In this document: positions 14,032-64,000 of the stretch, piece by piece
How positions within the stretch are numbered: the stretch's first letter is position 1
How the letters are laid out: the number at the start of each line of letters is the position of its first letter
Assembly: GCF_036227605.1 (NCBI RefSeq)
Contig: NZ_CP109487.1
Location: forward strand, 558,001-622,000
Length of the DNA: 64,000 bases
Source of the DNA: Streptomyces sp. NBC_01439
GTDB lineage: Bacteria; Actinomycetota; Actinomycetes; Streptomycetales; Streptomycetaceae
Direction: 5' to 3'
The notes under the pieces: generated by a model
The model's input: only the letters and a program-made list of their open reading frames with translations
Databases searched by the model: none
Told to the model about the DNA's origin: nothing
Made by a program: the position numbers and the translations under genes

Positions 14032-14075
14032 CCCCCGGTCTCTCTTCCTGTTTACGCGCACAGCGACACGCCAGT

Positions 14076-14902: not shown

Positions 14903-14933
14903 CGGCGGCCACTCACCCCAGGAGTGGCCGCCG
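14903..14933. terminator. Bidirectional hairpin between TetR and TerD genes
   Basis: Perfect 12-bp arms (CGGCGGCCACTC / GAGTGGCCGCCG) around a 7-base loop, centred in the 157-bp gap of two convergent genes. It has no U-tract, as is usual in high-GC actinomycetes. Confidence 0.65.
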
Positions 14934-14973
14934 TCCGATCCGTGCGGCTCCGCACCGGCCCGGACGGCCGACT

Positions 14974-16829: not shown

Positions 16830-16850
16830 CGCCCGCCGACACGACCCGAC

Positions 16851-49343: not shown

Positions 49344-50627
49344 GTGACCGAGCGGGAAGTCGATGTTCTGGCGATCGGTGCGGGTCCGGCCAATCTGGCC
49401 CTGGCAGCCGCCATCGAGGAATCCGGATCAGCCGAATTGGCGGACGGCACACTCCTACTGGAACAAAGCCCCGACATCACCTGGCAACGCGACCTCCTGA
49501 TGCCCTGGGCACGCAGCCAAGTCTCCTTCCTCAAAGACCTCGTCACCCTCCGCAACCCGAGCAGCCGGTTCACCTTCCTGAACTTCCTCCACGCACAAGG
49601 CCGACTCGACGAATTCGTCAACCTCGGCACCTTCCACCCCTTCCGCTGGGAATTCTCCGACTACCTCCAATGGGTCGCCACCTCCCTGGAACACGTCACC
49701 ATCCGCTACGACGCCCGCGCCACCCACGTCGACCCCGTACACACCACCGACCGCACCCTCACCGGCTGGACCGTACACCTCACCGACGGCGACACCATCC
49801 ACTGCCGCGACCTCGTCATCGGCGGCGGCCGCGACCCCCGAATACCAGAAACCTTCACCACCCTCCCCCCGGACCGCCTCATCCACAGCGCCCAATACCG
49901 CACCAAAATCACCCGAATACCAAAAGACCAACCCCTCCGCATCGCCGTCGTGGGCGGCGCCCAAAGCGCCGCCGAAATGTTCTACGCCCTCCACGAAAAC
50001 CTACCGGCCAGCCACATCACCATGCTGGTCCGCTCCATCGGACTACAAAACTACCAATCCAGCAAATTCGTCAACGAACTCTTCTTCCCATCATTCGTCG
50101 ACGAGTTCTACGACAGCCCCACCGAAGTCCGCGCACAAATCCTCGACGAAATGCGATTCACCAACTACGCCGGACTCGCACCCCCCTTCCTCGACGAGCT
50201 CTACACCATGCTCTACCGCCAGAAAACCGTCGGGCCCCAACGCTCCGAGGTGCGGGCAATGACGGAGGTGGTGGGGGCCCGCCTCGACGGCGACGAAGTG
50301 GTGCTCGACCTCCGCGACCGACTCAGCGGCAAAACCGAACCCCTCCGCTGCGACCTCGTCGTACTCGGAACCGGCTACGACCCCCGCAAACCCACCCTCG
50401 TCCGAGAACTCGCCACACGCATCGGCCTCGACGACGTCACCGTCAGCCGCAACTACCGCGTCGACCTCGGCACACCCACCCGCGGAGCCCTCTACCTCCA
50501 AGGCGTCAACGAAAAAACCCACGGCATCGCCGACTCCCTCATCAGCGTCCTCGCCCACCGCTCCCACGACATCCTCACCGACCTCCTCACCCGCCGCACC
50601 ACCACCCAACCCAGGAGCACACGATGA
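49330..50627 (+). repeat. 1.3-kb direct repeat, copy 1
   Basis: Matches 55835-57132 at offset 6505 with 13 mismatches in 1298 bp by eye. It spans exactly from the ribosome-binding region (ATCGAGGGGGAAG) to the ATGA junction with the next gene. The repeats flank 5.2 kb containing four cluster genes. Confidence 0.9.
49344..50627 (+). CDS. Lysine/ornithine N-monooxygenase (SidA/IucD family), copy 1
   Basis: A 427-residue FAD/NADPH N-hydroxylase of the family that turns L-lysine or L-ornithine into the N-hydroxy derivative. FAD-binding GAGPANL is at residues 12-18, the NADPH site VVGGAQSAAEM near 207, and the late GTGYDPRKP closes the fold. In this context the likely product is N6-hydroxylysine, one half of a hydrazine. 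It is the first gene of the operon and its stop overlaps the MetRS-like start (ATGA). Wobble positions are strongly C/A with few G, unlike its neighbours. GTG start with AGGGGGAAG upstream. Confidence 0.92.
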   Translation: MTEREVDVLAIGAGPANLALAAAIEESGSAELADGTLLLEQSPDITWQRDLLMPWARSQVSFLKDLVTLRNPSSRFTFLNFLHAQGRLDEFVNLGTFHPFRWEFSDYLQWVATSLEHVTIRYDARATHVDPVHTTDRTLTGWTVHLTDGDTIHCRDLVIGGGRDPRIPETFTTLPPDRLIHSAQYRTKITRIPKDQPLRIAVVGGAQSAAEMFYALHENLPASHITMLVRSIGLQNYQSSKFVNELFFPSFVDEFYDSPTEVRAQILDEMRFTNYAGLAPPFLDELYTMLYRQKTVGPQRSEVRAMTEVVGARLDGDEVVLDLRDRLSGKTEPLRCDLVVLGTGYDPRKPTLVRELATRIGLDDVTVSRNYRVDLGTPTRGALYLQGVNEKTHGIADSLISVLAHRSHDILTDLLTRRTTTQPRSTR

Positions 50628-52159
50628 AGCGGACGTTGGTGATAGCCCCCGGCCCGACCGCGAACGGCGATCTGCACCTGGGGCACCTGGCCGGCCCGTT
50701 CCTCGCTGCGGACGTCTGCACGAGGTACGCGCGTTCCACCGGACAGGACGTGCTGTTCGGTACGGGCGTGCACTTCACGCAGAACTACATCGTGACCACC
50801 GCCCGAAGGCTGGGGGTCCCGCCCGAGGAGCTGCGCGTGCGCTCGGCCGCGCAGGTCGAGGACACCCTGGCGGCCGTCGGGATCGACCCGGACGGCTTCG
50901 TCCGGTTCGACGACCGGTACGTGAAGACGGTCCGGCACTTCTTCGAGCGCCTGCACGGTACGGGAAAGTTGCGGCTGCGGGCCGTGAAGTTCCCGTACGC
51001 GCCGCACACCGGCGCGTACCTCACGGACGCCTACGTACGCGGAGGCTGCCCGGTGTGCCTGGCCGAGGGCTGCGCCGGACTGTGCGAGAACTGCGGGCAC
51101 TGGATCGCCTCCGCCGACCTCATCGCACCGCGCTCGACCCTGGACCCGGACGGTCCGGTCGAACTGCGGGAGCAGCAGGTCCTGGTGCTCCCGCTGGAGG
51201 AGCACCGCGAGGCGCTCGTGGAGTACTTCGCCGGGCGCGCAGCGACGATGCGTCCGCGGCTGGCCCAGATGATCGAGGAGATCCTGTCCCGGCCGCTCCC
51301 GGACTATCCCGTCACTCTGCCGATCTCCTGGGGCATCCCGGCGCCGTTCCCGGAGGTCGCCGGTCAGGTGATCTACGCGGATGCCGAGACCATCGCCTGG
51401 AGCATGCACTGCACCGCGCTCGCGGCCGAGCGGCGCGGGGCGGTGCTCGGCGCCGACGACGAGCTGTGGTTCTCCGACGCCGGCACGCAGGTGGCGTACT
51501 TCTTCGGCTCCGACGCCGGTTTCGCCTTCGCGGTGGTCGGGGCCGCGATGCTGCTGGCGCTGGGGGGCTACACGCTGCCCGAACACTTCGTCACGAACGA
51601 GTTCTACGAGCTGGACCACGACAAGTTCTCCACCAGCCGGGGTCATGTTGTGACGGGGCGGGAGCTGGCCGCAGAGGTGCCGAGGGACCTGGTGCGGTTC
51701 TATCTCGCGGCGACCGGGCCGGACTTCCAGCGCACCAACTTCAACCGCGCGGCCCTGGAGCACGTGACCGGCACCCGGCTCGTCCGGCCCTGGAACCGGG
51801 TGGTGGACAAGGTCGCCGCGTGGACGGGCCGGGGACCGCTGCCGGTGTCCGAGCGGTCCAGGGCGGCGGCCGGGCTGATGCTGGAGCGGTTCGCCGCCGC
51901 CTACGACGTGCGCCGGTTCAGTCTGACCGCGGTGGCCTTCACCCTGTCCGAGCAACTGGCGCGACTCGACCGGTGGGAGGTGGGTCCCGGCGACGCGGGC
52001 GACTTCTGCCACGAGGTGGAGGTGTTCCTGCGCTGTGCGGCGCCGGTCCTGATCGACCTGGCCGGGCAGGCGCTGCCAGAGCGAACGGTCCCCGCCCGGC
52101 CGGACACCGTGCAGGTCACGCCCGTACGGTTGCCACGGCTGGCGGAGACGGGGTCGTGA
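50624..52159 (+). CDS. Methionyl-tRNA synthetase-like protein, probable half of a hydrazine synthetase
   Basis: A 511-residue class I synthetase-fold protein. The HIGH motif is HLGH (18-21), a zinc knuckle uses C142, C145, C154 and C157, and the KMSKS loop reads KFSTS (334-338) with the second lysine replaced by Thr. In known pathways a MetRS-like domain fused to a cupin activates an amino acid and esterifies it to N6-hydroxylysine before N-N bond formation. No cupin is fused here; a separate cupin-type gene starts at 63813. Overlaps flank it on both sides. A resistant MetRS is a less likely alternative. Confidence 0.82.
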   Translation: MKRTLVIAPGPTANGDLHLGHLAGPFLAADVCTRYARSTGQDVLFGTGVHFTQNYIVTTARRLGVPPEELRVRSAAQVEDTLAAVGIDPDGFVRFDDRYVKTVRHFFERLHGTGKLRLRAVKFPYAPHTGAYLTDAYVRGGCPVCLAEGCAGLCENCGHWIASADLIAPRSTLDPDGPVELREQQVLVLPLEEHREALVEYFAGRAATMRPRLAQMIEEILSRPLPDYPVTLPISWGIPAPFPEVAGQVIYADAETIAWSMHCTALAAERRGAVLGADDELWFSDAGTQVAYFFGSDAGFAFAVVGAAMLLALGGYTLPEHFVTNEFYELDHDKFSTSRGHVVTGRELAAEVPRDLVRFYLAATGPDFQRTNFNRAALEHVTGTRLVRPWNRVVDKVAAWTGRGPLPVSERSRAAAGLMLERFAAAYDVRRFSLTAVAFTLSEQLARLDRWEVGPGDAGDFCHEVEVFLRCAAPVLIDLAGQALPERTVPARPDTVQVTPVRLPRLAETGS

Positions 52160-53223
52160 GGGCGGCGGTCGCCGCCCGGCGGGTGGTCGTCGTGGGAGCG
52201 GGCGTCACCGGGTTGCTGACCGCGGTGGAGTGCGCGCTCGCGGGCCACCACGTGACCGTGCTGGACAGGGGCCCGATCCCGAACCCGGCGTCGAGCTCCT
52301 GCGACCAGCACCGGGTCATCCGTACCCTTGACGCGGACGATGCGCAGGCCACCGGGCAGATGGTCGCCGCCCACCGGCGGTGGCTGGAGCTGGAGGGCCT
52401 GCTGGGCACCGGCTTCTTCCGGCGCGTGGGGGTGGTCACCGCCTGGCCCCGGGAGCGCCTCGCCTCGGTGACCGCGGCGGCCGCCACCGCGGGTGTGCCC
52501 GTGCGGACGGTGGAGCCGCGGCGCCTGCCGCACCTGAGGTTCCCGGCCGGTTCGGCGGCCGTGCTGGAGGCCGACGGCGGCGTACTGCTCGCCGACCGGG
52601 TGCTGCGGGCCGCGGTCCGGTGGCTCGCCGGGCATCCGGCGGTGACGGTGCGGCCGTACAGCCCGGTGGCGTGGATCGACGTGGACGGCGCGCACGTCCT
52701 GCTGGCCGACGGCGAGGAGCTCGGCGCCGACCTGGTGCTGGTCGCGGCCGGCCCGTGGACCCGGGACCTGGTGGGGCATCCGGTCGTGCTGCACCGACAG
52801 ACGATGGTCTACCTGCGGCCGCCGGCGAACGCGGCGCGGTGGTGGGGAACGGCTCCCGCCGCGGGCGGAATCGGCGCGGACGGGCGGGCCTGGGCGATGC
52901 CGCCGGGCGGCGGCGCGCTCTTGAAGATCAGCTCGGACGCCGTGTCCCGGGAAGTGGACGCCACCGCGGGTGCCGCGGAGGAGGACCAGGCGCCCTGGGT
53001 GGCGCGGCTGGCCGAGGCGGCACCGCTGTCCGGCCTGGAGCGCTACACGGTGGCGGCGGTCAAGCAGTGCCACTACGCGAGCGCCGCGGACACGGGCGGC
53101 GCCTTGCTCGCCCGCGTGGGTCCCGCCGTGTGGTCGCGGGCGGCCTGCGGCGGTTCCGGATTCAGCCAGGCTCCGCTCGTCGCGGGGCGGATCGTCGATG
53201 CCTTGACGAAGGGAGCGGCATGA
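52156..53223 (+). CDS. DAO-type FAD-dependent amino-acid oxidase
   Basis: A 355-residue flavoprotein of the D-amino-acid/glycine/sarcosine oxidase group. The dinucleotide site VVVVGAGVTGLLTAVECALAGHHVTVLDRG is at residues 10-39 and the C-terminal ACGGSGFSQAPLVAGRIVD resembles the usual FAD-closing segment. In hydrazine pathways such an enzyme oxidises the N6-hydroxylysine-derived hydrazine adduct, releasing a hydrazino acid and the lysine-derived semialdehyde. The GTG at 52156 overlaps the MetRS-like stop (GTGA). Confidence 0.85.
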   Translation: MRAAVAARRVVVVGAGVTGLLTAVECALAGHHVTVLDRGPIPNPASSSCDQHRVIRTLDADDAQATGQMVAAHRRWLELEGLLGTGFFRRVGVVTAWPRERLASVTAAAATAGVPVRTVEPRRLPHLRFPAGSAAVLEADGGVLLADRVLRAAVRWLAGHPAVTVRPYSPVAWIDVDGAHVLLADGEELGADLVLVAAGPWTRDLVGHPVVLHRQTMVYLRPPANAARWWGTAPAAGGIGADGRAWAMPPGGGALLKISSDAVSREVDATAGAAEEDQAPWVARLAEAAPLSGLERYTVAAVKQCHYASAADTGGALLARVGPAVWSRAACGGSGFSQAPLVAGRIVDALTKGAA

Positions 53224-54581
53224 AGGAGGAGGAGACTCCGATCGGCGTGTTCGAGGCGCTGAAGGCGACCCCGACCCCGGTGCGCTATCTGCTCGGTGGC
53301 GTGCTGATCAACCAGCTCGGCGCGTTCGTCCAGACGTTCCTCGTGCTGTACCTGACCTTCCGCGGCATGTCGGTCGCCGCCGCGGGTCTGGCCCTCGGCG
53401 CCTACAGCGTGGGGTCGATCTTCGGCACGATGCTGGGTGCCGAGTTCACCCAGCGGTTCGGTCCGCGGGCCACGATCGTGACGGCCATGGCGGGGTCCGC
53501 CCCGCTGGTGGCGGCGATCTCGTGGCTGAGCGGGCCGGGCAGGCTGTGGCAACTGCTCGTCGTCGTCGGGCTCGCGGGCCTGTTCACCCAGGCCTACCGG
53601 CCGGCGGCCGCCGTGATGCTGAGCGACCTGATGCCGGACCGATACCAGGTGATGGCGTTCTCGATGATGCGGATCGCCCTGAACATCGGTGCGGCCCTGG
53701 CGCCGCTGATCGCCGCCGGACTCATCCTGGTCGACTGGGACCTACTGTTCTGGATCGACGGCGGTACCGCACTCGTCTACTCGCTGCTGGCCTTCGCCCT
53801 GCTGCCGAAGAAGACCGTGCCGCAGGAGCCCGAGGCCGGGTCCGGGCCCGCGGACGGAAGCGAACCGTCCGACGGGGCGGCGCCGGGGGCGACGGCTGCG
53901 GCCGGGGAGCCAGCCGCCGACGGCGAGCCAGCCGGGCGCGTCGCCTCGGGCTACACCGCGATGCTGCGCGACCGGAAGTACGTCTTCTACCTGGCCGCCG
54001 TGCTGCTCGGCTCGCTCACCTACGCCCAGGGCCACATCGCCCTGCCGTTGGAACTGGCCGCCGACCACTACCCGACCAGCTTCTACAGCACGGTGCTCAC
54101 GGTGTCGTCCGTCGTGCTCATCACGTGCGAGCTCAAGGTCACGGCGTATCTCAGCAGACTGCCGAAGCACGTCCGCGTCATCACCGGCCATCTGGTGGAG
54201 GCCGTCGGCCTCGCCGTCTACGGTCTGTCCTCGCGGTCCGGGGCGTTCACGATCGCGGGCGTCGTCCTGGTCGTGGCGGGGATCATGATCGCTGCCCCGA
54301 GCATGTTCGCCCACCCGGCGACCTTCCCCCAGGCGGTGAAGGCCCGCTACATCGGCACGATGCAGGCGGTGGGCGGCGCGGCCGGGGCCCTTGCCCCGCT
54401 GTTCGGCGTGTACGCCTGGACCCGGCTCGGCAGCGGCTTCTGGCTGCTGTGCGGTGTGGTCACCGCGGTCGCCGGACTGCTCGCCCTGGCGGGCGTGCGA
54501 CAACCGCCCGAGCCGGCTCCCGCCACCGGTCCGGGGGCGGACCCCGCCGGGAAGACGGAAGCCGTCGGGGGTGCCGCGTGA
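53220..54581 (+). CDS. MFS exporter of the cluster
   Basis: A 453-residue major-facilitator protein with 12 predicted helices, closest in pattern to DHA1-type peptide/drug exporters (LGAYSVGSIFGTMLGAEFTQRFGPR loop motif; FTQAYRPAAAVMLSDLMP). The central cytoplasmic loop carries a Gly/Ala/Pro/Glu insertion of about 40 residues. It probably exports the product and gives self-protection. Start and stop overlap both neighbours by four bases. Confidence 0.88.
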   Translation: MKEEETPIGVFEALKATPTPVRYLLGGVLINQLGAFVQTFLVLYLTFRGMSVAAAGLALGAYSVGSIFGTMLGAEFTQRFGPRATIVTAMAGSAPLVAAISWLSGPGRLWQLLVVVGLAGLFTQAYRPAAAVMLSDLMPDRYQVMAFSMMRIALNIGAALAPLIAAGLILVDWDLLFWIDGGTALVYSLLAFALLPKKTVPQEPEAGSGPADGSEPSDGAAPGATAAAGEPAADGEPAGRVASGYTAMLRDRKYVFYLAAVLLGSLTYAQGHIALPLELAADHYPTSFYSTVLTVSSVVLITCELKVTAYLSRLPKHVRVITGHLVEAVGLAVYGLSSRSGAFTIAGVVLVVAGIMIAAPSMFAHPATFPQAVKARYIGTMQAVGGAAGALAPLFGVYAWTRLGSGFWLLCGVVTAVAGLLALAGVRQPPEPAPATGPGADPAGKTEAVGGAA

Positions 54582-55852
54582 CCGGGCGGCGGCCCGGCGC
54601 GGGCCGGCCGGTCCTGGTGATCGGTTTCGTGGGTGTCACGGTCGCCGCGATCGGGGCCTTCCAGCCGGACGACTCGGTGATCTACGTGGAGGAGCCGGAC
54701 GTCGTGCGCAAGCGGCGGGTGCACGAGCAGATCGAAGGAGTGGCCTTCGTCCGCGGCCTCATCGAGTGGGAGTACCACCTCGCGGGGAAGGCCGACGAGT
54801 TCTTCAACGCCCACCCGGACCTGGACCCCGCCGCGGTCGTCCCGGCCATCGAGTACGCCACGCCCTTCGCCGCCCGGCTCGCGGAACGCTACGGTCTGCC
54901 GGGCGCCGGTCTCGGCGCCGCGCAGATCCTGCGGGACAAGGCGCTGCTGCGGCGGGTGAGCGCGGCCGTCGGCATCGCGAACCCGGTGAGCGTGCCCGTA
55001 CGGGGTCCGGACGACGTGCTGGCCTTCCTGCGGGGCCGGTCGGGACCCGTCGTGCTCAAGCCGGCGAACCGTCAGGCGTCCGTGGGCACCCAGGTGATCC
55101 GCGATGCGTCCGAGGTCGAACGGGCGTGGGCCAACTGCCTCGTCCAGGACGAGGACGTCTTCGTGCCCGACCGGCCCATGGAGCTGTCCATGCTGGCCGA
55201 ACAGCACGTCGAGGGTCCCGAGTTCAGCGTCGAGATGCTGGTGAGGGACGGTGCCGCGCTGTTCGTCAACGTCACGGGGAAGCAGCTGTTCCCGGGGCCC
55301 CACCCGGTGGAGCTGGCCCACACCGTGCCGGCGGACATACCGGTGGACCTCGCGCGGCTGCTCGGTGCGCGGACCGAGCGCCTCGTCGAAGCCGTCGGCT
55401 TCCGCGACGGGATCGTCCACTGCGAGTGGATCGTCTCGGCGGGCATTCCGTACCTGGTGGAGTGCGCGGGCCGGCTGCCCGGCGGGGGCATTCTCGACAC
55501 CATCCAACTCGCCTATCCGGTCGAGCTGTTGCGCAGCTACTACGCGGTGTTGAAGGGCGAGGAGCTGCCGGGCGAACTGCCCCGGCGGGCGAAGGGCGGG
55601 GCGGCCGTGCGGTTCATCGCGGCCGCGGCGGGCCGGGTGGTCGCCGTACGCGGCGTCGGGGCCGCCCGGCAGGCGGAAGGCGTGTTCCTGGCCGCGGTCA
55701 CCGTGGAGCCGGGCCAGACGGTCGGCGAGGTGCGCCATTCCTGGCACCGGGCGGGCATCGTCATGGCCACCGCGGACAGCTCGACCGAGGCGCTCCGGCG
55801 GGCCGAGGCGGCCGCCGGCATGGTCCGAATCGACATCGAGGGGGAAGAGTGA
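54578..55852 (+). CDS. ATP-grasp amino-acid ligase 1
   Basis: A 424-residue ATP-grasp enzyme of the biotin-carboxylase-like group that forms amide bonds via acyl phosphates. LGAAQILRDKALLRRVSAAVGIANP begins the central domain, GPVVLKPANRQASVGTQVI is the ATP-grasp lysine loop, and VEGPEFSVEMLV with ECAGRLPGGGILDTIQL provides the metal-binding Glu/Asn-equivalent residues. Preceding MFS and following N-hydroxylase overlap by four bases. It probably couples the hydrazino acid or another amino acid. Partner substrates are unknown. Confidence 0.85.
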   Translation: MTGRRPGAGRPVLVIGFVGVTVAAIGAFQPDDSVIYVEEPDVVRKRRVHEQIEGVAFVRGLIEWEYHLAGKADEFFNAHPDLDPAAVVPAIEYATPFAARLAERYGLPGAGLGAAQILRDKALLRRVSAAVGIANPVSVPVRGPDDVLAFLRGRSGPVVLKPANRQASVGTQVIRDASEVERAWANCLVQDEDVFVPDRPMELSMLAEQHVEGPEFSVEMLVRDGAALFVNVTGKQLFPGPHPVELAHTVPADIPVDLARLLGARTERLVEAVGFRDGIVHCEWIVSAGIPYLVECAGRLPGGGILDTIQLAYPVELLRSYYAVLKGEELPGELPRRAKGGAAVRFIAAAAGRVVAVRGVGAARQAEGVFLAAVTVEPGQTVGEVRHSWHRAGIVMATADSSTEALRRAEAAAGMVRIDIEGEE

Positions 55853-57132
55853 CCGAGCGGGAAGTCGATGTTCTGGCGATCGGTGCGGGTCCGGCCAATC
55901 TGGCCCTGGCAGCCGCCATCGAGGAATCCGGATCAGCCGAATTGGCGGACGGCACACTCCTACTGGAACAAAGCCCCGACATCACCTGGCAACGCGACCT
56001 CCTGATGCCCTGGGCACGCAGCCAAGTCTCCTTCCTCAAAGACCTCGTCACCCTCCGCAACCCGAGCAGCCGGTTCACCTTCCTGAACTTCCTCCACGCA
56101 CAAAACCGACTCGACGAATTCGTCAACCTCGGCACCTTCCACCCCTTCCGCTGGGAATTCTCCGACTACCTCCAATGGGTCGCCACCTCCCTGGAACACG
56201 TCACCATCCGCTACGACGCCCGCGCCACCCACGTCGACCCCGTACACACCACCGACCGCACCCTCACCGGCTGGACCGTACACCTCACCGACGGCGACAC
56301 CATCCACTGCCGCGACCTCGTCATCGGCGGCGGCCGCGACCCCCGAATACCAGAAACCTTCACCACCCTCCCCCCGGACCGCCTCATCCACAGCGCCCAA
56401 TACCGCACCAAAATCACCCGAATACCAAAAGACCAACCCCTCCGCATCGCCGTCGTGGGCGGCGCCCAAAGCGCCGCCGAAATGTTCTACGCCCTCCACG
56501 AAAACCTACCGGCCAGCCACATCACCATGCTGGTCCGCTCCATCGGACTACAAAACTACCAATCCAGCAAATTCGTCAACGAACTCTTCTTCCCATCATT
56601 CGTCGACGAGTTCTACGACAGCCCCACCGAAGTCCGCGCACAAATCCTCGACGAAATGCGATTCACCAACTACGCCGGACTCGCACCCCCCTTCCTCAAC
56701 GAGCTCTACACCATGCTCTACCGCCAGAAAACCGTCGGGCCCCAACGCTCCGAAGTCCGAGCCATGACCGAAGTCGTCGGAGCCCGCCTCGACGGCGACG
56801 AAGTGGTGCTCGACCTCCGCGACCGACTCAGCGGCAAAACCGAACCCCTCCGCTGCGACCTCGTCGTACTCGGAACCGGCTACGACCCCCGCAAACCCAC
56901 CCTCGTCCGAGAACTCGCCACACGCATCGGCCTCGACGACGTCACCGTCAGCCGCAACTACCGCGTCGACCTCGGCACACCCACCCGCGGAGCCCTCTAC
57001 CTCCAAGGCGTCAACGAAAAAACCCACGGCATCGCCGACTCCCTCATCAGCGTCCTCGCCCACCGCTCCCACGACATCCTCACCGACCTCCTCACCCGCC
57101 GCACCACCACCCAACCCAGGAGCACACGATGA
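55835..57132 (+). repeat. 1.3-kb direct repeat, copy 2
   Basis: Second copy of the block at 49330-50627, 6505 bp downstream, same orientation. The boundaries sit at equivalent translational junctions, so the copied unit is one ribosome-site-plus-ORF cassette. The two copies differ by 13 bp. Confidence 0.9.
55849..57132 (+). CDS. Lysine/ornithine N-monooxygenase, copy 2
   Basis: A 427-residue near twin of the first operon gene; only residues 86 (Gly to Asn) and 284 (Asp to Asn) differ. All cofactor motifs are kept, so both copies should be active or specialised slightly. The GTG overlaps the ATP-grasp stop (GTGA) and the end overlaps the next ATP-grasp start (ATGA). Nine wobble bases in the stretch after codon 301 differ from copy 1. 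Recent duplication or gene conversion is likely. Confidence 0.92.
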   Translation: MTEREVDVLAIGAGPANLALAAAIEESGSAELADGTLLLEQSPDITWQRDLLMPWARSQVSFLKDLVTLRNPSSRFTFLNFLHAQNRLDEFVNLGTFHPFRWEFSDYLQWVATSLEHVTIRYDARATHVDPVHTTDRTLTGWTVHLTDGDTIHCRDLVIGGGRDPRIPETFTTLPPDRLIHSAQYRTKITRIPKDQPLRIAVVGGAQSAAEMFYALHENLPASHITMLVRSIGLQNYQSSKFVNELFFPSFVDEFYDSPTEVRAQILDEMRFTNYAGLAPPFLNELYTMLYRQKTVGPQRSEVRAMTEVVGARLDGDEVVLDLRDRLSGKTEPLRCDLVVLGTGYDPRKPTLVRELATRIGLDDVTVSRNYRVDLGTPTRGALYLQGVNEKTHGIADSLISVLAHRSHDILTDLLTRRTTTQPRSTR

Positions 57133-58427
57133 GCGCGGGCCGGGGCACGCTGCTGGTCATCGGGAGCGGCCTGAAGGTGTACCGGGAGTACCTGATAGCG
57201 CCGATCCGCCGCCGCGCCCGAGCGGCGGGTCTGGACATGGTGCTGCTCAACAATCTGAAGCCCACCTGGCAGCGTGACTACTTCGACGAGATCACCGTCG
57301 CCAACGTGTTCGACTCCGGGGCGATGGGCGCGGCGGCCCGGGAAGTCGCCTCCCGGCGCCGCATCGTCGGCCTGATGTGCTGGGACGAGCCGCTCGTCCT
57401 GGATGCCGGCCTGCTCGCCGCCGAGTTCGGCGTGCCGGGTCTGTCCGTACCGGGCGTGCGCGGCTGCCGCGACAAGGAGCGCACCCGGGCCGAACTCACC
57501 GCGGCGGGCATCCACCAGCCGGGCTTCGAGCTGACCACCACGGTCGAGCAGGCCAGAGCGGCGGCCGACCGGATCGGCTATCCCGTCGTGATCAAGCCCC
57601 GGGCGATGGGGGCGAGCATCGGGGTCGTGTTCGCGGCCGGTGCGACCGAGGTGGAGGCGGCGTTCCGGATCGCCCTGGCCGCGAGCGAGGTCGATCCGGG
57701 GCCCTACCGTGCGAGCGCCCTGGTCGAGGGGTACGCGCCCGGCCCGGAGATCAGCGTCGACGGCGCCGTCCACAAGGGCGAGTACCTGCCGATGTTCCTG
57801 GCCCGCAAGCACAGCAGCGACCAGCCCTACTTCGAGGAGGTCGGGCACCTGGTCGACGCGGGCGACCCGCTGATGGCGGACGAGGAGCTGATGAGCACCC
57901 TGGCGCGGGCCCACCGCGCGCTCGGCATCGAGGACGGCATCACCCACAGCGAGCTGCGCCTGACCGCACGCGGGCCCCTCGTCATCGAGATCAACGGCCG
58001 CCTCGGCGGGGACCTGATCCCCTTCCTCGGCAGGACCGCGACCGGTATCGAGCCCGGTGAGGTGTTGTTCGACGTGGCCACCGGACAGCGTCCCGACACC
58101 AGGCCCACCCGGCGGGCGGTGGCCGGCATCCGGTTCGGCTATCCGGAGCAGGACTGTCTGCTGCGCTCGGTGCGCGTACCGGTCGAGGCACCCGGCCTGG
58201 TCACGGCCGCGCCGATGGCCGAACCGGGTACCACCCTGCGGCTGCCTCCGGGCGGCTACCTGGCCCGCCACTCCTTCGTGGTGTGCGAGGCCGACGACGT
58301 ACGGACCTGCCTCGACCGTCTGGACGCGGCCGCGAGGCTGGTCGAGCTGGAGGCCGAACCGATCGGCCCGCCGGACCCGGACGCTCCGTTCGAGATGCCC
58401 GCCGGACTGCTCGACGTGGACGCATGA
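57129..58427 (+). CDS. ATP-grasp amino-acid ligase 2
   Basis: A 432-residue ATP-grasp enzyme, not closely similar to ligase 1. VRGCRDKERTRAELTAAGI opens the ATP-grasp region, GYPVVIKPRAMGASIGVVFA is the nucleotide loop, and HSELRLTARGPLVIEINGRLGGDLIPFLG carries the metal-binding E-x-N motif. A C-terminal domain resembles those of dapdiamide/bacilysin-type ligases. Two ligases imply a product of at least three joined units or two alternative couplings. It overlaps its upstream neighbour by four bases. Confidence 0.87.
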   Translation: MSAGRGTLLVIGSGLKVYREYLIAPIRRRARAAGLDMVLLNNLKPTWQRDYFDEITVANVFDSGAMGAAAREVASRRRIVGLMCWDEPLVLDAGLLAAEFGVPGLSVPGVRGCRDKERTRAELTAAGIHQPGFELTTTVEQARAAADRIGYPVVIKPRAMGASIGVVFAAGATEVEAAFRIALAASEVDPGPYRASALVEGYAPGPEISVDGAVHKGEYLPMFLARKHSSDQPYFEEVGHLVDAGDPLMADEELMSTLARAHRALGIEDGITHSELRLTARGPLVIEINGRLGGDLIPFLGRTATGIEPGEVLFDVATGQRPDTRPTRRAVAGIRFGYPEQDCLLRSVRVPVEAPGLVTAAPMAEPGTTLRLPPGGYLARHSFVVCEADDVRTCLDRLDAAARLVELEAEPIGPPDPDAPFEMPAGLLDVDA

Positions 58428-58492
58428 CCGCCACCGCGGAGCCGGACCGGACCGTGGCGGACCGCAGCACGCCATCACCCGAGGGGGAACGC

Positions 58493-59707
58493 ATGAGCAC
58501 GACCCGGAACCCGGGCACCGAAGCACCCACGACCGCCGAAGAGATCCTCGCGCGGGCCAAGGCACTGGCCCCGCGGCTGCGGGAACGGTCGGCGGAGATC
58601 GAACAGGCCCGGCAGCTCCCAGCGGACGTGGTGGACCTGCTGCGCGACACCGGAGTGTTCCGGATGTGCTTCGGCCCCGAGTGGGGCGGACCCGAGCTGA
58701 CGTCGATGCAGCAGGCCGAAGTGGTGGAGACGTTGGCCTACGGGGACGCCTCGGCCGGCTGGTGCGCGGCGATCGGCGCGATGACCGGGGCGATCAGCAA
58801 CTTCTTGGATCCGGCCGTGGTCAAGGAGGTGTTCCCGAGCCTCGACATGATCACCGCCGGGCTGATCGCGCCGGCCGGGCACGCCGAGCGCGTGCCCGGC
58901 GGCTTCCGGCTCTCCGGCCGGTGGTCGTTCGGCAGCGGGATCACCCATTGCGACTGGGTGACCTCGGGTGCGTTCATCTACCAGGACGGCAAGCCGTGGG
59001 CGAGCCCGGACGGCAGCAACGCGCACGCGTCGCGCCAGTTCCTTGTGCCGGCGCACGAGGTGGGGGTCGTCGGGAACTGGGACACCACCGGCCTGTGCGG
59101 CAGCGGGAGCAGTGACTACACGATCACCGACGTGTTCGTGCCCGAGGAGCACACCTACACCTTCTACAAGGTGCGGGGCCGCACGGACACCCCGATCGCC
59201 CAGCCGGACTCCTTCATGCGCAGCCTGTGCGCGGTCCCGCTCGGGGTGGCCAGGGCCGCCCTGGACCACGCGCGGGAAACCGCGCTCACCCGGGTGGACA
59301 AGATGACCAACACGCCGTGGGCGGACACCTTCCGCGTACAGGTGACCCTCGCCGAGTGCGAGGCGGAGTTCAACGCCGCCCGCAGCGGGGTCTACAGCAG
59401 CTCGCAGCGGCACTGGGACGTACTGGCCGGTGGCGGCACGTTGGACGATCTGACCGCCACCGAGCGGGCCGCGTCCTCGCTGGCCTGGGTGCACGCCTTC
59501 CGCACCTCGCGGGCGATCGTGAACCGGCTCTACGACCTACTGCAGGCCTGGTCGATCAACCGGTCCTCGCCGATGGACCGCTGGATGCGCGACACCGCGA
59601 CCATGTGCCAGCACGTCGCCGCCTCGGATCTGATCCTCGAATCAGGCGGCGCCTACCTGCTGGGCCGGCCGCCCAAGTTCCGGATGAGCCTCGGCATCGT
59701 CAAGTAG
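58493..59707 (+). CDS. Acyl-CoA-dehydrogenase-fold flavoprotein 1
   Basis: A 404-residue protein of the ACAD superfamily resembling flavin-dependent hydroxylase/monooxygenase members more than fatty-acyl dehydrogenases: LRERSAEIEQARQLPADVVDLLRDTGVFRM, GDASAGWC, RWSFGSGITHCDWVTSGAFIY and the C-terminal WVHAFRTSRAIVNRLYDLL. The catalytic glutamate of true dehydrogenases is not evident. Relatives include N-oxidising nitrososynthases, so N- or C-oxidation of the hydrazine product is plausible. ATG 58493 matches its paralogue's start; an upstream ATG at 58424 overlaps the ligase stop and may couple translation. Confidence 0.83.
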   Translation: MSTTRNPGTEAPTTAEEILARAKALAPRLRERSAEIEQARQLPADVVDLLRDTGVFRMCFGPEWGGPELTSMQQAEVVETLAYGDASAGWCAAIGAMTGAISNFLDPAVVKEVFPSLDMITAGLIAPAGHAERVPGGFRLSGRWSFGSGITHCDWVTSGAFIYQDGKPWASPDGSNAHASRQFLVPAHEVGVVGNWDTTGLCGSGSSDYTITDVFVPEEHTYTFYKVRGRTDTPIAQPDSFMRSLCAVPLGVARAALDHARETALTRVDKMTNTPWADTFRVQVTLAECEAEFNAARSGVYSSSQRHWDVLAGGGTLDDLTATERAASSLAWVHAFRTSRAIVNRLYDLLQAWSINRSSPMDRWMRDTATMCQHVAASDLILESGGAYLLGRPPKFRMSLGIVK

Positions 59708-59728
59708 GGCCAAGTGAAGGGCGATCAC

Positions 59729-60943
59729 ATGAGCATGACCCGGAACCCGAGGGTCCAGGTGCCCGCCGCCACCGCGGCGGAGCTCCTCGCCCGTGCGAAG
59801 GAGCTGGCTCCACTGCTGCGGGAGCGGTCGGCGGAGATCGAGGAGGCGCGGCGGCTGCCGGCGGACGTGGTGGACCTACTGCGCGGCGCCGGGGTGTTCC
59901 GGATGGCCTTCGGCCGTGAGCTGGGCGGCCTGGCGCTGACCACGATGGAGCAGACCGAGGTCGTCGAGACCCTTGCGCACGGGGACGCCTCCGCGGCCTG
60001 GTGCGCGGTGATGGGCGCGAGCAGCGGGATCTTCAGCGCCTTCCTCGACGAGAGGGTGGCCAAGGAGGTCTTCCCGACCCCGGACACGATCATGGCCGGG
60101 CTGCTGCAGCCGACGGGGCACGCCGAGCGGGTGCCCGGCGGTTTCCGGCTCTCCGGCCGGTGGTCGTTCGGCAGCGGGATCACCCATTGCGACTGGGTGA
60201 CCTCGGGTGCGTTCGTCTACGCGGACGGCAAGCCGTACGCGAGCCCCGACGGCAGCAATCCGCACGAGTCGAGGCAGTTCCTGGTGCCCCGGGCGCAGGT
60301 GGAGGTCATCGACAACTGGCACACCATGGGCATGCGCGGCACCGGCAGTTGCGACTACACGATGGCCGATGTCTTCGTGCCCGAGGAACACACGTACAGC
60401 TTCGGCAAGGTGCGCGGCCGGCCCGGCCCGCTCGCCCAGCCGGACGCCTTCACGCGCAGTATGTGCGGCGTTGCGCTGGGGGTGGCCAGGGCCGCCCTGG
60501 ACCACGCCCGGGAGATCGCCCGGACCCGGGTCGACCGGATGACCGGGGTGGCGTGGAAGGACCACTTCCGGGCGCAGGTCACGCTCGCCGAGTGCGAGGC
60601 GGACCTCCTCGCCACTCGGAGCGGGGTCTACGGGAGCCAGCGGCGCCAGTGGGCGGTGTTGGCCGCCGGGGGCACGCTGGACGACCTCACCCCCGAGGAG
60701 CGCGCCGCGTCGCCGATCGCCTGGGTGCACGCCTTCCGCACCTCGCGGTCGATCGTCAGCCGGCTCTGCGACCTGCTGCAGACCTGGTCGATCCACCAGT
60801 CGTCGCCGATGGACCGCTGGATGCGCGACACCACCACCATGTGCCAGCACGCCACCGCCCAGGACCGCATCCTCCAGTCGGCCGGCGCCTATCTGCTGGG
60901 CGGGAAGCCCGAGTTCGGGATCTGCCTCGGCATCGTCAGATGA
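59729..60943 (+). CDS. Acyl-CoA-dehydrogenase-fold flavoprotein 2
   Basis: A 404-residue paralogue of the preceding gene, equal in length and roughly 70 percent identical by eye, with long identical blocks such as RVPGGFRLSGRWSFGSGI. Changes cluster around the substrate region (MAGLLQPTG versus TAGLIAPAG; MGMRGTGSCDYT versus TGLCGSGSSDYT). The pair probably arose by tandem duplication and may form a heteromer or do two successive oxidations. The start ATG at 59729 lies 21 bp after the first gene's stop. Confidence 0.85.
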   Translation: MSMTRNPRVQVPAATAAELLARAKELAPLLRERSAEIEEARRLPADVVDLLRGAGVFRMAFGRELGGLALTTMEQTEVVETLAHGDASAAWCAVMGASSGIFSAFLDERVAKEVFPTPDTIMAGLLQPTGHAERVPGGFRLSGRWSFGSGITHCDWVTSGAFVYADGKPYASPDGSNPHESRQFLVPRAQVEVIDNWHTMGMRGTGSCDYTMADVFVPEEHTYSFGKVRGRPGPLAQPDAFTRSMCGVALGVARAALDHAREIARTRVDRMTGVAWKDHFRAQVTLAECEADLLATRSGVYGSQRRQWAVLAAGGTLDDLTPEERAASPIAWVHAFRTSRSIVSRLCDLLQTWSIHQSSPMDRWMRDTTTMCQHATAQDRILQSAGAYLLGGKPEFGICLGIVR

Positions 60944-60984
60944 CGCGAATCGCCTGCGTGCAGGCCAGGGGGGGAGAAAGTCCG

Positions 60985-62709
60985 ATGGGCCGAGGCCTGG
61001 TGCTTTTGGTCAATCCCAACAAGGTGCACCCACCGATCGCTCCCTATGCGCTCGATGTGCTCACGACCTCGTTGGAAGCCGCCGACTTCGAGGTCGAGGT
61101 GGTCGACCTCACGTTCCACCGGGAGGACTGGAAGACCTGCCTCTCCGACTACTTCGGGACGCGCAGCCCGGTCCTCGTCGGTGTCACCATCCGCAATACC
61201 GACACCGTCTACGCCTTCGAACAGCGCCCTTTCGTCGGCGAACACAAGGAGATCATCACCGAGATCAGACGGCTGACGGACGCGCCGATCGTCGGCGGCG
61301 GCATCGGCTTCTCCTCCATGCCCTTCGCGCTGGTCGACTACTTCGGCATCGATTTCGGCGTCAAGGGGCCGGGTGAGCAGATCATCTGCGACCTCGCCGA
61401 CGCGCTGCTCACCGGGCGCGGCACGGACACGGTCAGCGGGCTCATCCGCAACACCCCGGAAGGGGTGACCAGGGTGCCGCCGCCGGCACTCGCCCCGTCG
61501 GCCCGCCGTACGGTGGCGGCGCCGCTGCCCGCCGGGCAGTTCGAGGACCGGACCTGGCAGGTGGACCGCTCCGGAATGTACGTCCGCCGCTCCGGCGCGC
61601 CGCACAAGGTGGACAACCTGTTGTACTACCAGCGCGGCGGGTTGGCCGGCATCCTCACCAAGAACGGCTGCACCTACCGCTGTTCGCACTGCGTGGAGCC
61701 GGACGCCAAGGGCATCCGGACGGGCCGGCGCGATGTCGCGGCCGTGGTCGACGAGATGCAGTCCCTGGCTGAGCAGGGGATCCTCGACCAACACACCACC
61801 GACAGCGAGTTCAACCTGGCGATATCCCACGCCAAGAACCTGTTGCGGGAGATCGTCCGGCGCAAGCACGCCGATCCCGGCAACCCGCTGAACGACTTGC
61901 GGCTGTGGGTCTACTGCCAGCCCTCGCCGTTCGACGAGGAGTTCGCCGGGCTGCTCGCCGCCGCGGGCTGTCGCGGGGTGAACGTCGGCTCGGACCACGT
62001 GCGCGCCGAGATGCTGAACGGCTGGAAGATCACGCAGAAGGGCACCACGTACTACACCTTCGCCGATACCGAGCGCCTGGTCCGGCTCTGCCACGCCAAC
62101 GGCATGCTGACCATGGTCGAGGCGCTCTTCGGGATGCCGGGCGAGACACCCCGGAGCATGCGCGAATGCGTAGACGCGTTCATGGCGCTGGACGCCACCG
62201 TGACCGGCTTCTCGCTGGGGTTGCGGCTCTTCCCCCACACGCCGCTGGGCATCGCGATGGCCGAGCGGTGCGACGGTGTCCGGACGGTAGCGGGACTGCA
62301 GTCCAACACGGCGACCGGGCCGATCGTGCTGAAACCCCTGTCCAAGTGCTCCGGGCCGGTGGAGTACGAGCGGCAATTCATGTTCGACGAATCGGGCAAC
62401 TTCCGTCTGGTCTGCTACTTTTCCCCGGATCTGCTGGAGGGGACCGAAACGGTCACCGATCCCTCCGGGCGCTGGAGCCGGTCCGTGGATCTCCTGTGGG
62501 AGCTCGTCGATCCGTCGGACTACCACCGGGTGATGCTGCCGACGCTGGCAGGCTCCAGTGAGCACGACAACAACTACGCGGACAATCCGTTCCTGACGAG
62601 TCTGGGAGGGCTCGGATACACCGGCGCATTCTGGGCGCACTGGCGTGATCGGGAAGCGATCCTGCGCCGCGCGCAGGACGTCGGAGCGGTTGGACCGGCG
62701 GGTACGTGA
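60985..62709 (+). CDS. Cobalamin-binding radical SAM enzyme
   Basis: A 574-residue class B-type radical SAM protein. The N-terminal Rossmann cobalamin-binding domain spans about 1-165 (VLLVNPNKVHPPIAPYALDVL, VGVTIRNTDTVYAF, GIGFSSMPFALVDYFGIDFGVKGPGE). The 4Fe-4S motif is CTYRCSHC (C229, C233, C236), with the GGDE-like region replaced by TTDSEFNLA. Such enzymes methylate unactivated carbons, or do ring contractions. The ATG at 60985 has GGGGGAG; a 60940 ATG overlaps the flavoprotein stop. It ends the operon. Confidence 0.88.
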   Translation: MGRGLVLLVNPNKVHPPIAPYALDVLTTSLEAADFEVEVVDLTFHREDWKTCLSDYFGTRSPVLVGVTIRNTDTVYAFEQRPFVGEHKEIITEIRRLTDAPIVGGGIGFSSMPFALVDYFGIDFGVKGPGEQIICDLADALLTGRGTDTVSGLIRNTPEGVTRVPPPALAPSARRTVAAPLPAGQFEDRTWQVDRSGMYVRRSGAPHKVDNLLYYQRGGLAGILTKNGCTYRCSHCVEPDAKGIRTGRRDVAAVVDEMQSLAEQGILDQHTTDSEFNLAISHAKNLLREIVRRKHADPGNPLNDLRLWVYCQPSPFDEEFAGLLAAAGCRGVNVGSDHVRAEMLNGWKITQKGTTYYTFADTERLVRLCHANGMLTMVEALFGMPGETPRSMRECVDAFMALDATVTGFSLGLRLFPHTPLGIAMAERCDGVRTVAGLQSNTATGPIVLKPLSKCSGPVEYERQFMFDESGNFRLVCYFSPDLLEGTETVTDPSGRWSRSVDLLWELVDPSDYHRVMLPTLAGSSEHDNNYADNPFLTSLGGLGYTGAFWAHWRDREAILRRAQDVGAVGPAGT

Positions 62710-62904
62710 GTTTGCCGGATTTCAATTGTCGATGCATGTGCGAAGGCCGTGAAATAGGGCGCGAATAGTGATGCCTTCGTCGACATAACTATCACGTTTC
62801 TTCTCGCACTCCTCACCGTTGCGGTGGGCCGGACCTCTGGACCATTCTGGGATCCGGCCGATCAGCATGGACCGTGTTTCACCGTCGAGTGGGGGAAGGT
62901 ACGA

Positions 62905-63672
62905 ATGAACCAGAAAACCGACACCATGAGATTACTCTGGCCACTCGCGCCACATAATGATCCACGAAGAGACGGGGTGGTCCTTCGGCCCGACGAAGAC
63001 CTCCCGGCCACCCACCGGGCCCCCGCCTCGGTCACCGTCGTCCTCGCCGACACCCAGCCCGCAATTCGTCACGGTGTCCGTTCCGTTCTCGAACGGTCCG
63101 AGGGAATTTCGGTCGTCGGAGAGGCCGCCACGGCGGACGAGGTGATCGAGGAAATGTGCCGCTGGAGACCCGTTGTGCTCGTGCTCGACCCGCTGATGGA
63201 CGGATCCTCCGGAACGCAGGTCATCCCTGAGGTCCTGAGGTCCTGGCCCGACACGGGCATCCTGGTCTTCAGTGCCGTGGACGACGACCGGGCCATCACC
63301 TCGGCACTCCAGGCGGGTGCCCGCGGCTACCTGTTCAAGCGGGCCGACGCGGACCAGATCCTGCGCGGGATCCAGGCCGTGGCGGCCGGCGAGGCGATCA
63401 TCGACAAATCGATCGCCGGACGACTCGGCGCCCTCATGCGCGCCACCTCCGGTCAGCAGTATTACTACCCGTTCCCGCAATTGACCAACCGGGAAAGGGA
63501 CGTTCTGGAACGCATCGCCGCGGGCAAATCGAATACCATCATCGCCCGTGAACTCGTGCTCGCCTCGAAGACCGTCAGCAACCGCGTTTCCGTGATATTC
63601 GGCAAGCTCGGCGTGGCGGATCGCTCGCAGGCCATCGTGCTGGCCCGGGACGCCGGTCTCGGACACGGCTGA
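62905..63672 (+). CDS. NarL/LuxR-type regulator with atypical receiver and a TTA codon
   Basis: A 255-residue regulator. The receiver keeps the acceptor aspartate D95 (LVLDPLMDG) and K145, but the usual acidic pair reads D49-T50. The LuxR HTH is at 193-244 (LTNRERDVLERIAAGKSNTIIARELVLASKTVSNRVSV). A 43-residue unconserved N-terminal extension precedes it. Codon 10 (62932-62934) is TTA, so synthesis should need the bldA leucyl-tRNA. No kinase is nearby. It may bind the twin boxes in front of both cluster operons. 195 bp of leader separates it from the radical SAM gene. Confidence 0.88.
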   Translation: MNQKTDTMRLLWPLAPHNDPRRDGVVLRPDEDLPATHRAPASVTVVLADTQPAIRHGVRSVLERSEGISVVGEAATADEVIEEMCRWRPVVLVLDPLMDGSSGTQVIPEVLRSWPDTGILVFSAVDDDRAITSALQAGARGYLFKRADADQILRGIQAVAAGEAIIDKSIAGRLGALMRATSGQQYYYPFPQLTNRERDVLERIAAGKSNTIIARELVLASKTVSNRVSVIFGKLGVADRSQAIVLARDAGLGHG

Positions 63673-63703
63673 TCCGCCGGTCCGTGATCCCCCGCACCAC
63701 CGA

Positions 63704-63761
63704 TTCCCTCCCGACCAGGGAACAATTCCCCTGTCGAAAGGGAGCAGTCGGCTTCTAGCCT
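63704..63761 (+). promoter_or_regulatory. Cluster promoter 2 with twin TTCCC...GGGA boxes
   Basis: Box 1 TTCCCTCCCGACCAGGGAA at 63704-63722 and box 2 TTCCCCTGTCGAAAGGGAG at 63726-63744, starts 22 bp apart; TAGCCT at 63756-63761. Spacing from box 2 to TAGCCT is 30 bp, identical to promoter 1. It drives the cupin-type gene beginning at 63813. Confidence 0.65.
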
Positions 63762-63812
63762 GAACGACGTCGCGCGCCGCCGGAAAATGAGGACGTCGAT
63801 CGGAGTGGGACG

Positions 63813-64000
63813 TTGACCGACCAGGAAAAACCCGATGTGATCATCCGCAGAAGAGAGCCGGATAACCTGACCCGGGCTCACGGACTGGATCTCGGACTCC
63901 TCCATCCGTGGCCCGGGTTGGAAACTCCATTTCGTGGAGCCTGGTGCGTCCTGCGCCCCGGTGACGTGACGGATGCGCACGCCCATCACGAACGCGAGCT
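63813..64000 (+). CDS. Cupin-domain protein, N-terminal part (cut by window edge)
   Basis: The first 62 codons of a gene running off the right edge. G50-x5-H56-x-H58-x3-E62 matches cupin motif 1, G(X)5HXH(X)3-4E, exactly; the segment reads RPGDVTDAHAHHERE. In hydrazine synthetases a zinc cupin domain performs the N-N-forming step on the ester made by a MetRS-like domain. Here the cupin starts its own transcript. The TTG start at 63813 follows GGAG; other nearby codons lack a ribosome site. Whether a second MetRS-like domain is fused beyond the window is unknown. Confidence 0.75.
   Translation, partial: MTDQEKPDVIIRRREPDNLTRAHGLDLGLLHPWPGLETPFRGAWCVLRPGDVTDAHAHHERE

Follow-up and report, generated by a model that had tools for sequence, protein, structure and literature searches.

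A 64,000-nucleotide stretch of the Streptomyces sp. NBC_01439 genome (the window; positions 558001-622000 of a single 9,578,283-base contig, with window numbering used here) carries a gene cluster that, at a probability of roughly 0.68, makes a peptide-like product containing both a nitrogen-nitrogen (N-N) bond and a tryptophan-derived unit. The original prediction had proposed a hydrazine-synthetase core, consisting of an N-hydroxylase, a protein resembling methionyl-tRNA synthetase (MetRS) and a cupin, accompanied by ATP-grasp ligases, and the domains, the tree and the zinc residues described below support this core. N-N bond formation by the cluster is very likely, 2-methyltryptophan as an intermediate slightly more so, and the uniting of the two in one product is the outcome that we favor with some reserve. 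The product would probably be a hydrazine joined to (2-methyl)tryptophan by the ATP-grasp ligases. The general kind of cluster is already known; what is new is the tryptophan methyltransferase, the remote cupin linked by its operator, and the rebuilt pocket of the MetRS-like protein. Three of our findings were absent from the original prediction, namely that the radical S-adenosylmethionine (SAM) protein is of the TsrM type, that the two proteins of acyl-CoA dehydrogenase (ACAD) fold resemble two-component flavin monooxygenases, and that the pocket lacks D52 and W253. The enzyme homologies, the zinc-site and TsrM active-site residues, the shared operator and the conservation of the genes as a set were all computed directly.

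Gene organization

Gene calling and domain scans recovered every gene that had been named, from the two N-hydroxylases through the cupin, all on the plus strand from 49344 onward. The earlier statement that nearly all of them are joined by 4-bp overlaps holds for the first six of the ten junctions from N-hydroxylase 1 to the LuxR gene, while the other four have gaps of 65, 6, 41 and 267 bp. The window end falls inside the cupin gene, which is followed, with 4-bp overlaps, by a 107-amino-acid (aa) protein (sp107) and a berberine-bridge-type flavin adenine dinucleotide (FAD) oxidase, so that the cluster extends about 1.9 kb beyond the window and stops at L010:3949 (65949 in window numbering). 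Much the same gene set was found again in other genomes, and it is therefore not a chance assembly. The features are as follows.

49240..49278, +: tandem operator of the main operon, two palindrome-like sites 21 bp apart, with TAGCCT at 49291-49296
49344..50627, +: flavin-dependent amino acid N-hydroxylase, copy 1 (PF13434, 305 bits; best PDB match 3s5w)
50624..52159, +: MetRS-like half of a split hydrazine synthetase, assigned by PF09334 (206 bits) and the tree; pocket H50/D253
52156..53223, +: DAO-type FAD amine oxidase, N-methyltryptophan/sarcosine oxidase-like (PF01266; NF008425 at 93.5 bits, cut-off 257)
53220..54581, +: predicted major facilitator superfamily (MFS) exporter (PF07690)
54578..55852, +: ATP-grasp L-amino acid ligase 1 (PF18603 and PF13535)
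55849..57132, +: N-hydroxylase, copy 2, 99.1% identical to copy 1
57129..58427, +: ATP-grasp L-amino acid ligase 2 (PF13535 and PF18603; best PDB matches BL00235 and BacD)
58493..59707, +: candidate ACAD-fold flavin monooxygenase 1, HsaA/IacA-like
59714..60943, +: candidate ACAD-fold flavin monooxygenase 2, 80.5% nucleotide identity to ACAD-fold protein 1
60985..62709, +: cobalamin-dependent tryptophan 2-C-methyltransferase, TsrM type (TIGR04428 at 1015.7 bits, cut-off 500)
62977..63672, +: LuxR-type response regulator (PF00072 and PF00196), candidate regulator of both units
63705..63743, +: tandem operator of the cupin unit, same geometry as 49240-49278, with TAGCCT at 63756-63761
63813..64000, +, TTG start: zinc cupin, predicted N-N-forming half of the synthetase (PF07883; whole gene L010:1813-2241, 142 aa)
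L010:2238-2561: sp107, 107-aa protein, 4-bp overlap after the cupin

Scanning of the cluster genes turned up no nonribosomal peptide synthetase (NRPS), polyketide synthase (PKS), acyl-CoA ligase or carrier protein, in keeping with the reported absence of the first two.

A probable split hydrazine synthetase

The MetRS-like protein (511 aa) is encoded separately from the cupin, without fusion, and its adenylation motifs are intact, with HLGH (residues 18-21) and KFSTS (starting at residue 334) standing for the HIGH/KMSKS-type motifs noted earlier. Both Pfam and NCBIfam models call it a tRNA ligase, as would suit a genuine or antibiotic-resistant MetRS in a chance neighborhood, though the NCBIfam score is far under the cut-off (203 versus 553 bits). 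The tree, the pocket, the cupin, the conserved gene set and a separate true MetRS in the same genome all contradict that explanation, whose probability is close to nil; we rejected it on the score and the tree position. The tree held 48 sequences, with E. coli MetG and this genome's own MetRS serving as a genuine-MetRS root and no resistance MetRS included. Its 46 non-genuine sequences, the window protein among them, were split from the genuine enzymes with a support of 0.96, and the 45 that remain when the azaserine-type protein is excluded were grouped with a support of 1.0, so the position of the azaserine-type protein relative to genuine MetRS depends on the single 0.96 node. The window protein itself lies inside a 41-member group (support 1.0). 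The original prediction had raised the concern that it might group with genuine synthetases; the tree separates it from both. The azaserine-type reference is a cupin-MetRS-carrier protein on Streptomyces lavendulae plasmid pSA3239, named by its gene order relative to the azs table in the relevant part of PMC10445470. In BLASTP the window protein scored 197 bits against this reference (32% identity), 124 bits against its own genome's MetRS and 115 bits against E. coli MetRS. It thus appears to side with hydrazine-synthetase-type proteins and not with genuine MetRS, on a tree whose synthetase-type reference was named from its gene order.

The cupin has the metal-site residues H56, H58, E62 and H96, spaced exactly as in PyrN (H50/H52/E56/H90) and RHS1 (D63, H65, E69, H103). 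This spacing recurs in 19 of the 20 cupins scanned, the remaining one (L093) having one extra residue ahead of the last histidine. Matches in the PDB were 4mv2 and 5uqp, with 5UQP at 8.8e-8. According to passages of PMC8664883, 5UQP is RHS1, all four alanine variants of RHS1 were inactive, and in PyrN E56A abolished activity and H52A nearly did so, while H50A kept about 82% and H90A about 27%. These residues also bear on the view that the MetRS-like protein ligates peptides or esters, that the cupin does other chemistry and that no N-N bond is made (the Met-Lys dipeptide proposal in Iyer et al. 2010). That role was proposed for the whole gene group in the part of PMC2922099 concerned, but later biochemistry showed N-N formation needing the zinc cupin (passages of PMC8664883) and the cupin residues are kept here, which leaves it very improbable.

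The cupin and the MetRS-like gene lie 11.7 kb apart and are preceded by the same tandem operator. Palindrome-like sites 21 bp apart stand upstream of N-hydroxylase 1 (49240/49261) and of the cupin (63705/63726), with TAGCCT beginning 30 bp past the start of the second site at both. Allowing up to two mismatches, the window has six operator matches versus 0.92 expected, a number reached in none of 100 shuffles. The two perfect matches among the six are the N-hydroxylase 1 and cupin operators, and two others lie elsewhere (5923, 62879). At no more than one mismatch, TTCCCCTRTCGANNGGGA was found only at the two second sites in the whole 9.58 Mb genome (reversed control, 0). Because the operator is shared and its best site occurs nowhere else in the genome, the cupin and the MetRS-like gene very probably form one system. 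L095 and L096 have similar operator pairs ahead of the same two genes, and in L015, L017 and L018 such a pair precedes the first gene. No good site was found by scanning L026, L028, L033 and L036, and in L093 and L024 none is visible ahead of the cupin, so only part of the family has the operator. The LuxR protein may be what binds at the tandem operators.

For the N-hydroxylase, the original assignment as a lysine N6-hydroxylase holds as to family (an amino acid N-hydroxylase), with lysine and ornithine both candidate substrates, because the best PDB match is an ornithine 5-monooxygenase (3s5w, 268 bits), ahead of the lysine enzyme MbtG (245 bits) and KtzI (231 bits). The two copies differ at 12 of 1284 nucleotides, nine of which cluster at nucleotides 906-933. 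Across four genomes the paralogues are closer within a genome (99.1, 92.8, 94.8 and 99.2% identity) than between genomes (73-85%), which suggests that they are kept alike by gene conversion; L017, at 88.4% with incompletely called genes and 87-91% to L015, adds nothing to this. Both ATP-grasp proteins have ATP-grasp_4 and LAL_C2 domains over the Pfam cut-offs, the combination used to recognize BacD/BL00235-type L-amino acid ligases. All 33 gene-called loci of the MetRS group that reach that region have a relative of ATP-grasp 2 (a fragment in L027), a count that leaves out L014 and L016, both of which end before it.

An altered amino acid pocket

In MetRS, D52 and W253 line the methionine pocket, with D52 near the alpha-amine. 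When aligned to E. coli MetG, the window protein has H50 in place of D52 and D253 in place of W253. Both residues are lost in all 25 group members aligned (as His-Asp, His-His, Gln-Asn or Gln-Phe), whereas Asp and Trp are kept in all 23 sequences outside the group, including the azaserine-type, Deinococcus ficus and Pantoea proteins, those of the two other loci in this genome and the two genuine MetRS. They are also absent from the best 120 of 735 relatives, which are the nearest by selection. The node joining the 25 pocket-altered sequences is weak (support 0.26, compared with 1.0 for the 15 His-type and 0.63 for the 10 Gln-type sequences), and the substitutions may have more than one origin. 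That it tracks TsrM was rejected, as the five His-His (H-H) loci called have no TsrM. The shared D52/W253 pocket is a common trait and not a published rule of membership, and its loss lowers confidence in the substrate, not in the fold or the partner. Because the usual Asp and Trp are missing, the acyl donor probably differs from the known ones, and a donor other than glycine is likely.

The original prediction had named hydrazinoacetic acid, which is unsupported here because the synthetase pocket differs. The corresponding ordinary route, from glycine and N6-hydroxylysine as in s56-p1 and triacsin, would have the pocket changes neutral and the tryptophan genes decorating the partner. It draws on the same three core families, and a phosphoenolpyruvate (PEP)-mutase/isocitrate-lyase-like gene beside some sister clusters could supply glyoxylate and glycine, an isocitrate lyase being present in the azaserine cluster as well (passages of PMC10445470). 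Given that the two pocket residues are kept everywhere outside the group and lost throughout it, and that the DAO oxidase is unlike the azaserine-type DAO, we consider this route unlikely.

Another possibility is that the split synthetase acts on tryptophan or 2-methyltryptophan, placing the N-N bond at the alpha nitrogen and giving alpha-hydrazino-tryptophan, which would then be coupled by the ATP-grasp ligases. Loss of the D52 equivalent, the alpha-amine binder of MetRS, would be odd for a free alpha-amino acid, and the pocket type does not follow TsrM. On the other side, the pocket looks opened, with G or A at the L13 position (P or T in other synthetase-type sequences) and D, H, N or F at the W253 position in all 25 group members compared, candidate indole-modifying genes recur across sister clusters, and passages of PMC8664883 and PMC11705231 describe tyrosine-accepting synthetases. 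On balance we rate this possibility as improbable, and we retain the joining of a separately made hydrazine to a tryptophan unit.

Predicted tryptophan-modifying enzymes

Sequence comparison identifies the cobalamin radical SAM protein as a TsrM-type tryptophan 2-C-methyltransferase. It is 75.5% identical to the chain of PDB entry 6WTE (6WTE/6WTF), no other distinct PDB sequence being matched at E 1e-20, and keeps R69, E273 and CX3CX2C, the TsrM residues whose roles are described in passages of PMC8992657. The 6WTE chain is in turn identical over 563 residues to a gene in another genome (G278) that sits inside a cluster of the type described here, made up of dimethylargininase, berberine-bridge-type oxidase, sp107, cupin, LuxR, TsrM, two ACAD, two ATP-grasp, MFS, DAO, MetRS-like and N-hydroxylase genes. 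We take the 6WTE enzyme to be KsTsrM of Kitasatospora setae.

The two ACAD-fold proteins resemble two-component flavin monooxygenases of the HsaA/Rv3094c-like family and are possibly indole-oxidizing, IacA being an ACAD-family flavin oxygenase that hydroxylates indole C2 (passages of PMC7225977). Among the best 120 of 733 relatives of the second protein, eight are annotated as indole-3-acetate monooxygenase, and one carries a flavin reductase domain in the same protein. Sister clusters hold further candidate indole-modifying genes: L133-L137, which have no TsrM, all have a 434-aa gene beside the DAO gene, whose L133 copy, the one scanned, best matches VioC (170 bits against a cut-off of 760), and the Kutzneria locus L026, which has TsrM, includes a tryptophan-dioxygenase-like gene over the Pfam cut-off.

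Elsewhere TsrM genes were seen in other settings. In L138 and L097 the gene adjoins YcaO and TfuA genes (L138 also has a lantibiotic dehydratase), a thiopeptide-like context of ribosomally synthesized and post-translationally modified peptides (RiPPs). L139 is likewise an apparent thiopeptide-like RiPP cluster, and the genomes of these three loci have no MetRS-like match at the thresholds used. The Kutzneria genome of L026 (G251) holds a second TsrM relative (L098; 72-73% identity) whose neighbors read as ketosynthase and carrier proteins.

Proposed pathway

The route below is our inference as regards what each enzyme acts on, the sequence of reactions, the coupling of the hydrazine and tryptophan parts and what is finally made. 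Either N-hydroxylase copy would oxidize the side-chain amine of lysine or ornithine; the MetRS-like protein would adenylate a second amino acid and esterify it onto the hydroxylamine; the zinc cupin would turn the unstable ester into an N-N bond by rearrangement; and the DAO oxidase would cut the C-N bond beside the hydrazine, leaving a smaller hydrazino acid. In parallel, TsrM would methylate tryptophan at indole C2 and the two ACAD-fold monooxygenases would oxidize the indole with reduced flavin supplied from elsewhere. The ATP-grasp ligases would then couple the hydrazino acid, the (2-methyl)tryptophan unit and perhaps a third amino acid, with late oxidation by the berberine-type oxidase and export by the MFS protein. 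Both transcription units would be switched on via the shared tandem operator.

Several observations weigh against this route. The union of the tryptophan and hydrazine halves is argued solely from co-localization and the ATP-grasp genes, and the product and activities are read from genes alone. The altered pocket could mean a substrate that is not an alpha-amino acid, which would change the steps from ester formation to C-N cleavage. For the ACAD-fold proteins, the best NCBIfam match is HsaA, below its cut-off, and among the best 120 of 733 relatives the name AidB-like acyl-CoA dehydrogenase is commoner than indole-3-acetate monooxygenase. A flavin reductase, which sister clusters have, was not seen in the scanned genes of this cluster. 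Nor does every member of the group show signs of an indole partner, because the available stretches of L029, L030 and L035, which have Gln-type pockets (Q-type), show no ACAD gene. Among 80 genomes of the genus of L033, a MetRS-like gene (at least 58% identity) occurs in 21 and a TsrM relative (57-78%) in 6, never both, and TsrM is thus best seen as optional tailoring.

Distribution and cluster forms

A contig scan returned 26 loci, all from actinomycetes, 24 of which belong to the MetRS group of the window protein; the nine named genera are Streptomyces, Kitasatospora, Actinacidiphila, Kutzneria, Dactylosporangium, Micromonospora, Actinokineospora, Pseudosporangium and Amycolatopsis. Related genomes are not independent samples, and the counts that follow are to be read in that light. 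In the window's own genus, TsrM scored over the cut-off in 3 of 246 genomes; the window genome and G199 have a MetRS-like gene within 11 kb, and G066 has no such neighbor. In the genus of L021, TsrM was present in 14 of 70 genomes, 13 of which carry, no more than 11 kb away, a MetRS-like gene at 72% identity or higher (a partial copy in one case and an in-frame stop in another), and none of the 56 TsrM-less genomes has such a gene (best identity 62%). Over a phylum-wide sample of 396 genomes, TsrM was detected at E 1e-150 only in the window's own genome.

Three forms of the cluster were observed. The first has a His-Asp (H-D) pocket with TsrM, in all H-D loci reaching that region; the second an H-H pocket and the 434-aa gene, without TsrM (L133-L137); and the third is Q-type without TsrM, having a peptide-binding protein and a flavin reductase in L028, L031, L032, L033, L037 and L140, with L099 having the reductase and L029, L030 and L035 neither. 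The N-hydroxylase, cupin, MetRS-like, DAO, ATP-grasp 2 and sp107 genes are present across all three forms, given that sp107 was not called in L035 and several contigs stop ahead of the cupin.

Adjoining the Q-type clusters of L031 (3128-5367), L033, L037 and L140 are an Ada-AlkA DNA-alkylation-repair gene and the PEP-mutase/isocitrate-lyase-like gene; that the former serves as self-protection against a DNA-alkylating product is only suggestive. BLAST found no Ada/AlkA gene in the window or L010, and no dimethylargininase-type gene either, for which a role in supplying ornithine is an idea only.

Comparison with known systems

Passages of Iyer et al. 2010 (PMC2922099) describe a MetRS paralog with a cupin and a lysine monooxygenase, frequently accompanied by ATP-grasp ligases, dimethylargininase and binding proteins; N-N chemistry was proven, and standalone cupin/MetRS pairs noted, in the relevant part of PMC8664883. 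The claim of a new arrangement is therefore too broad, as split pairs and neighboring ATP-grasp genes are published there; what stands is the tryptophan methyltransferase link. Among the open-literature matches listed (titles, abstracts and passages), we found no paper linking a hydrazine synthetase to a tryptophan methyltransferase or 2-methyltryptophan, and none that reports this cluster variant as a whole. The neighborhoods of Iyer et al. share the general gene set, including ATP-grasp, some with periplasmic peptide-binding proteins and dimethylargininase, and differ in that the main text has 0 occurrences of "radical SAM" and the relevant passages no tryptophan-modifying genes.

The closest organization is that of split synthetases (RHS1 with its MetRS-like partner in Rhodococcus jostii, Afn8/Afn9 of albofungin, and pairs in passages of PMC11705231), which also have separate MetRS-like and zinc cupin genes with an N-hydroxylase, and of which RHS1, like PyrN, shares the metal-site spacing. 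Here, in contrast, the cupin belongs to a separate transcription unit that has its own copy of the operator, and the MetRS-like pocket is without its Asp and Trp in a comparison that does not include the Rhodococcus and albofungin MetRS-like proteins. Kit1-Kit2 of Kitasatospora gansuensis, also in PMC11705231, could be a member.

The fused systems of s56-p1, triacsin and azaserine (Spb38-40, Tri26-28, AzsL-M-N) likewise combine an N-hydroxylase, MetRS-like domain, cupin and FAD oxidase, and the original prediction equated the core here with Spb38-40 and Tri26-28. At the level of orthology we rejected this: the proteins are split and not fused, identity to the azaserine-type locus is 28-32% (28% for the N-hydroxylase), and the two DAO proteins are not significantly similar (best BLASTP E 0.36), the azaserine-type DAO having been used in place of Spb39 and Tri27. 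The nearest family of the DAO here is N-methyltryptophan/sarcosine oxidase, with a score under every cut-off. The TsrM of thiostrepton works in thiopeptide biosynthesis, whereas YcaO and TfuA were not found among the cluster genes scanned here. The clusters on Deinococcus ficus pDFI1 (L041) and Pantoea ananatis pOC5aB (L040) share N-hydroxylase, cupin, MetRS-like, DAO, ATP-grasp and substrate-binding protein genes, and L041 has counterparts of both ATP-grasp ligases (46% and 41%); unlike the window, both have the ordinary D/W pocket and no TsrM or ACAD annotated in the stretch. The wider hydrazine/ATP-grasp class thus travels on plasmids beyond actinomycetes. Negamycin, fosfazinomycin and kinamycin were set aside as a type, for they use a different, heme-dependent N-N enzyme of the KinJ family (passages of PMC12154649).

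The ATP-dependent enzymes reviewed in part of PMC11705231 accept Gly, Ala, Ser, Glu and Tyr. We tentatively suggest, at somewhat less than even odds, that the MetRS-like proteins of this group are a new class of hydrazine synthetase with a substrate outside that list, that they build an indole-hydrazine family, and that the solved TsrM belongs here and not to a thiopeptide. Tryptophan, or an acid lacking a free alpha-amine, could be that substrate. Few enzymes that form N-N bonds are available, and they are in demand as catalysts; more than 100 relatives with a rebuilt pocket would be a source of new specificities. The cluster gives the solved 6WTE/6WTF methyltransferase a pathway unlike thiopeptide biosynthesis, and the product class predicted for many sequenced strains combines hydrazine with indole chemistry and needs neither NRPS nor PKS.

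Additional genes and loci

The sp107 protein matches no Pfam or NCBIfam family. Its model is confident (pLDDT, a per-residue confidence score, of 96) and all-beta, with weak best Foldseek matches to avidin-type barrels (E about 1e-3), and it was dropped as an enzyme candidate. Just upstream of the cluster, window positions 48735-48974 (minus strand) encode what looks by sequence like a small secreted chaplin-like protein.

This genome has four strong PF09334 proteins, one of which is the true MetRS while the other three adjoin a cupin and an amino acid N-hydroxylase, so the strain has three hydrazine-type loci, their families named by similarity. One of the two others, L011 (C1:4880001-4900000, genes 3321-14545), has N-hydroxylase, cupin, MetRS-like, MFS, ATP-grasp, dimethylargininase, sp107-relative and peptide-binding protein genes, with no DAO called; a second dimethylargininase copy lies beyond, and an adjacent gene reads as an O6-methylguanine methyltransferase. 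The other, L013 (C1:8105001-8125000, genes 8492-16845), has genes that read, several by resemblance, as FAD monooxygenase-like, cupin, MetRS-like, PanD-like (a small protein), N-hydroxylase, DAO and condensation-like.

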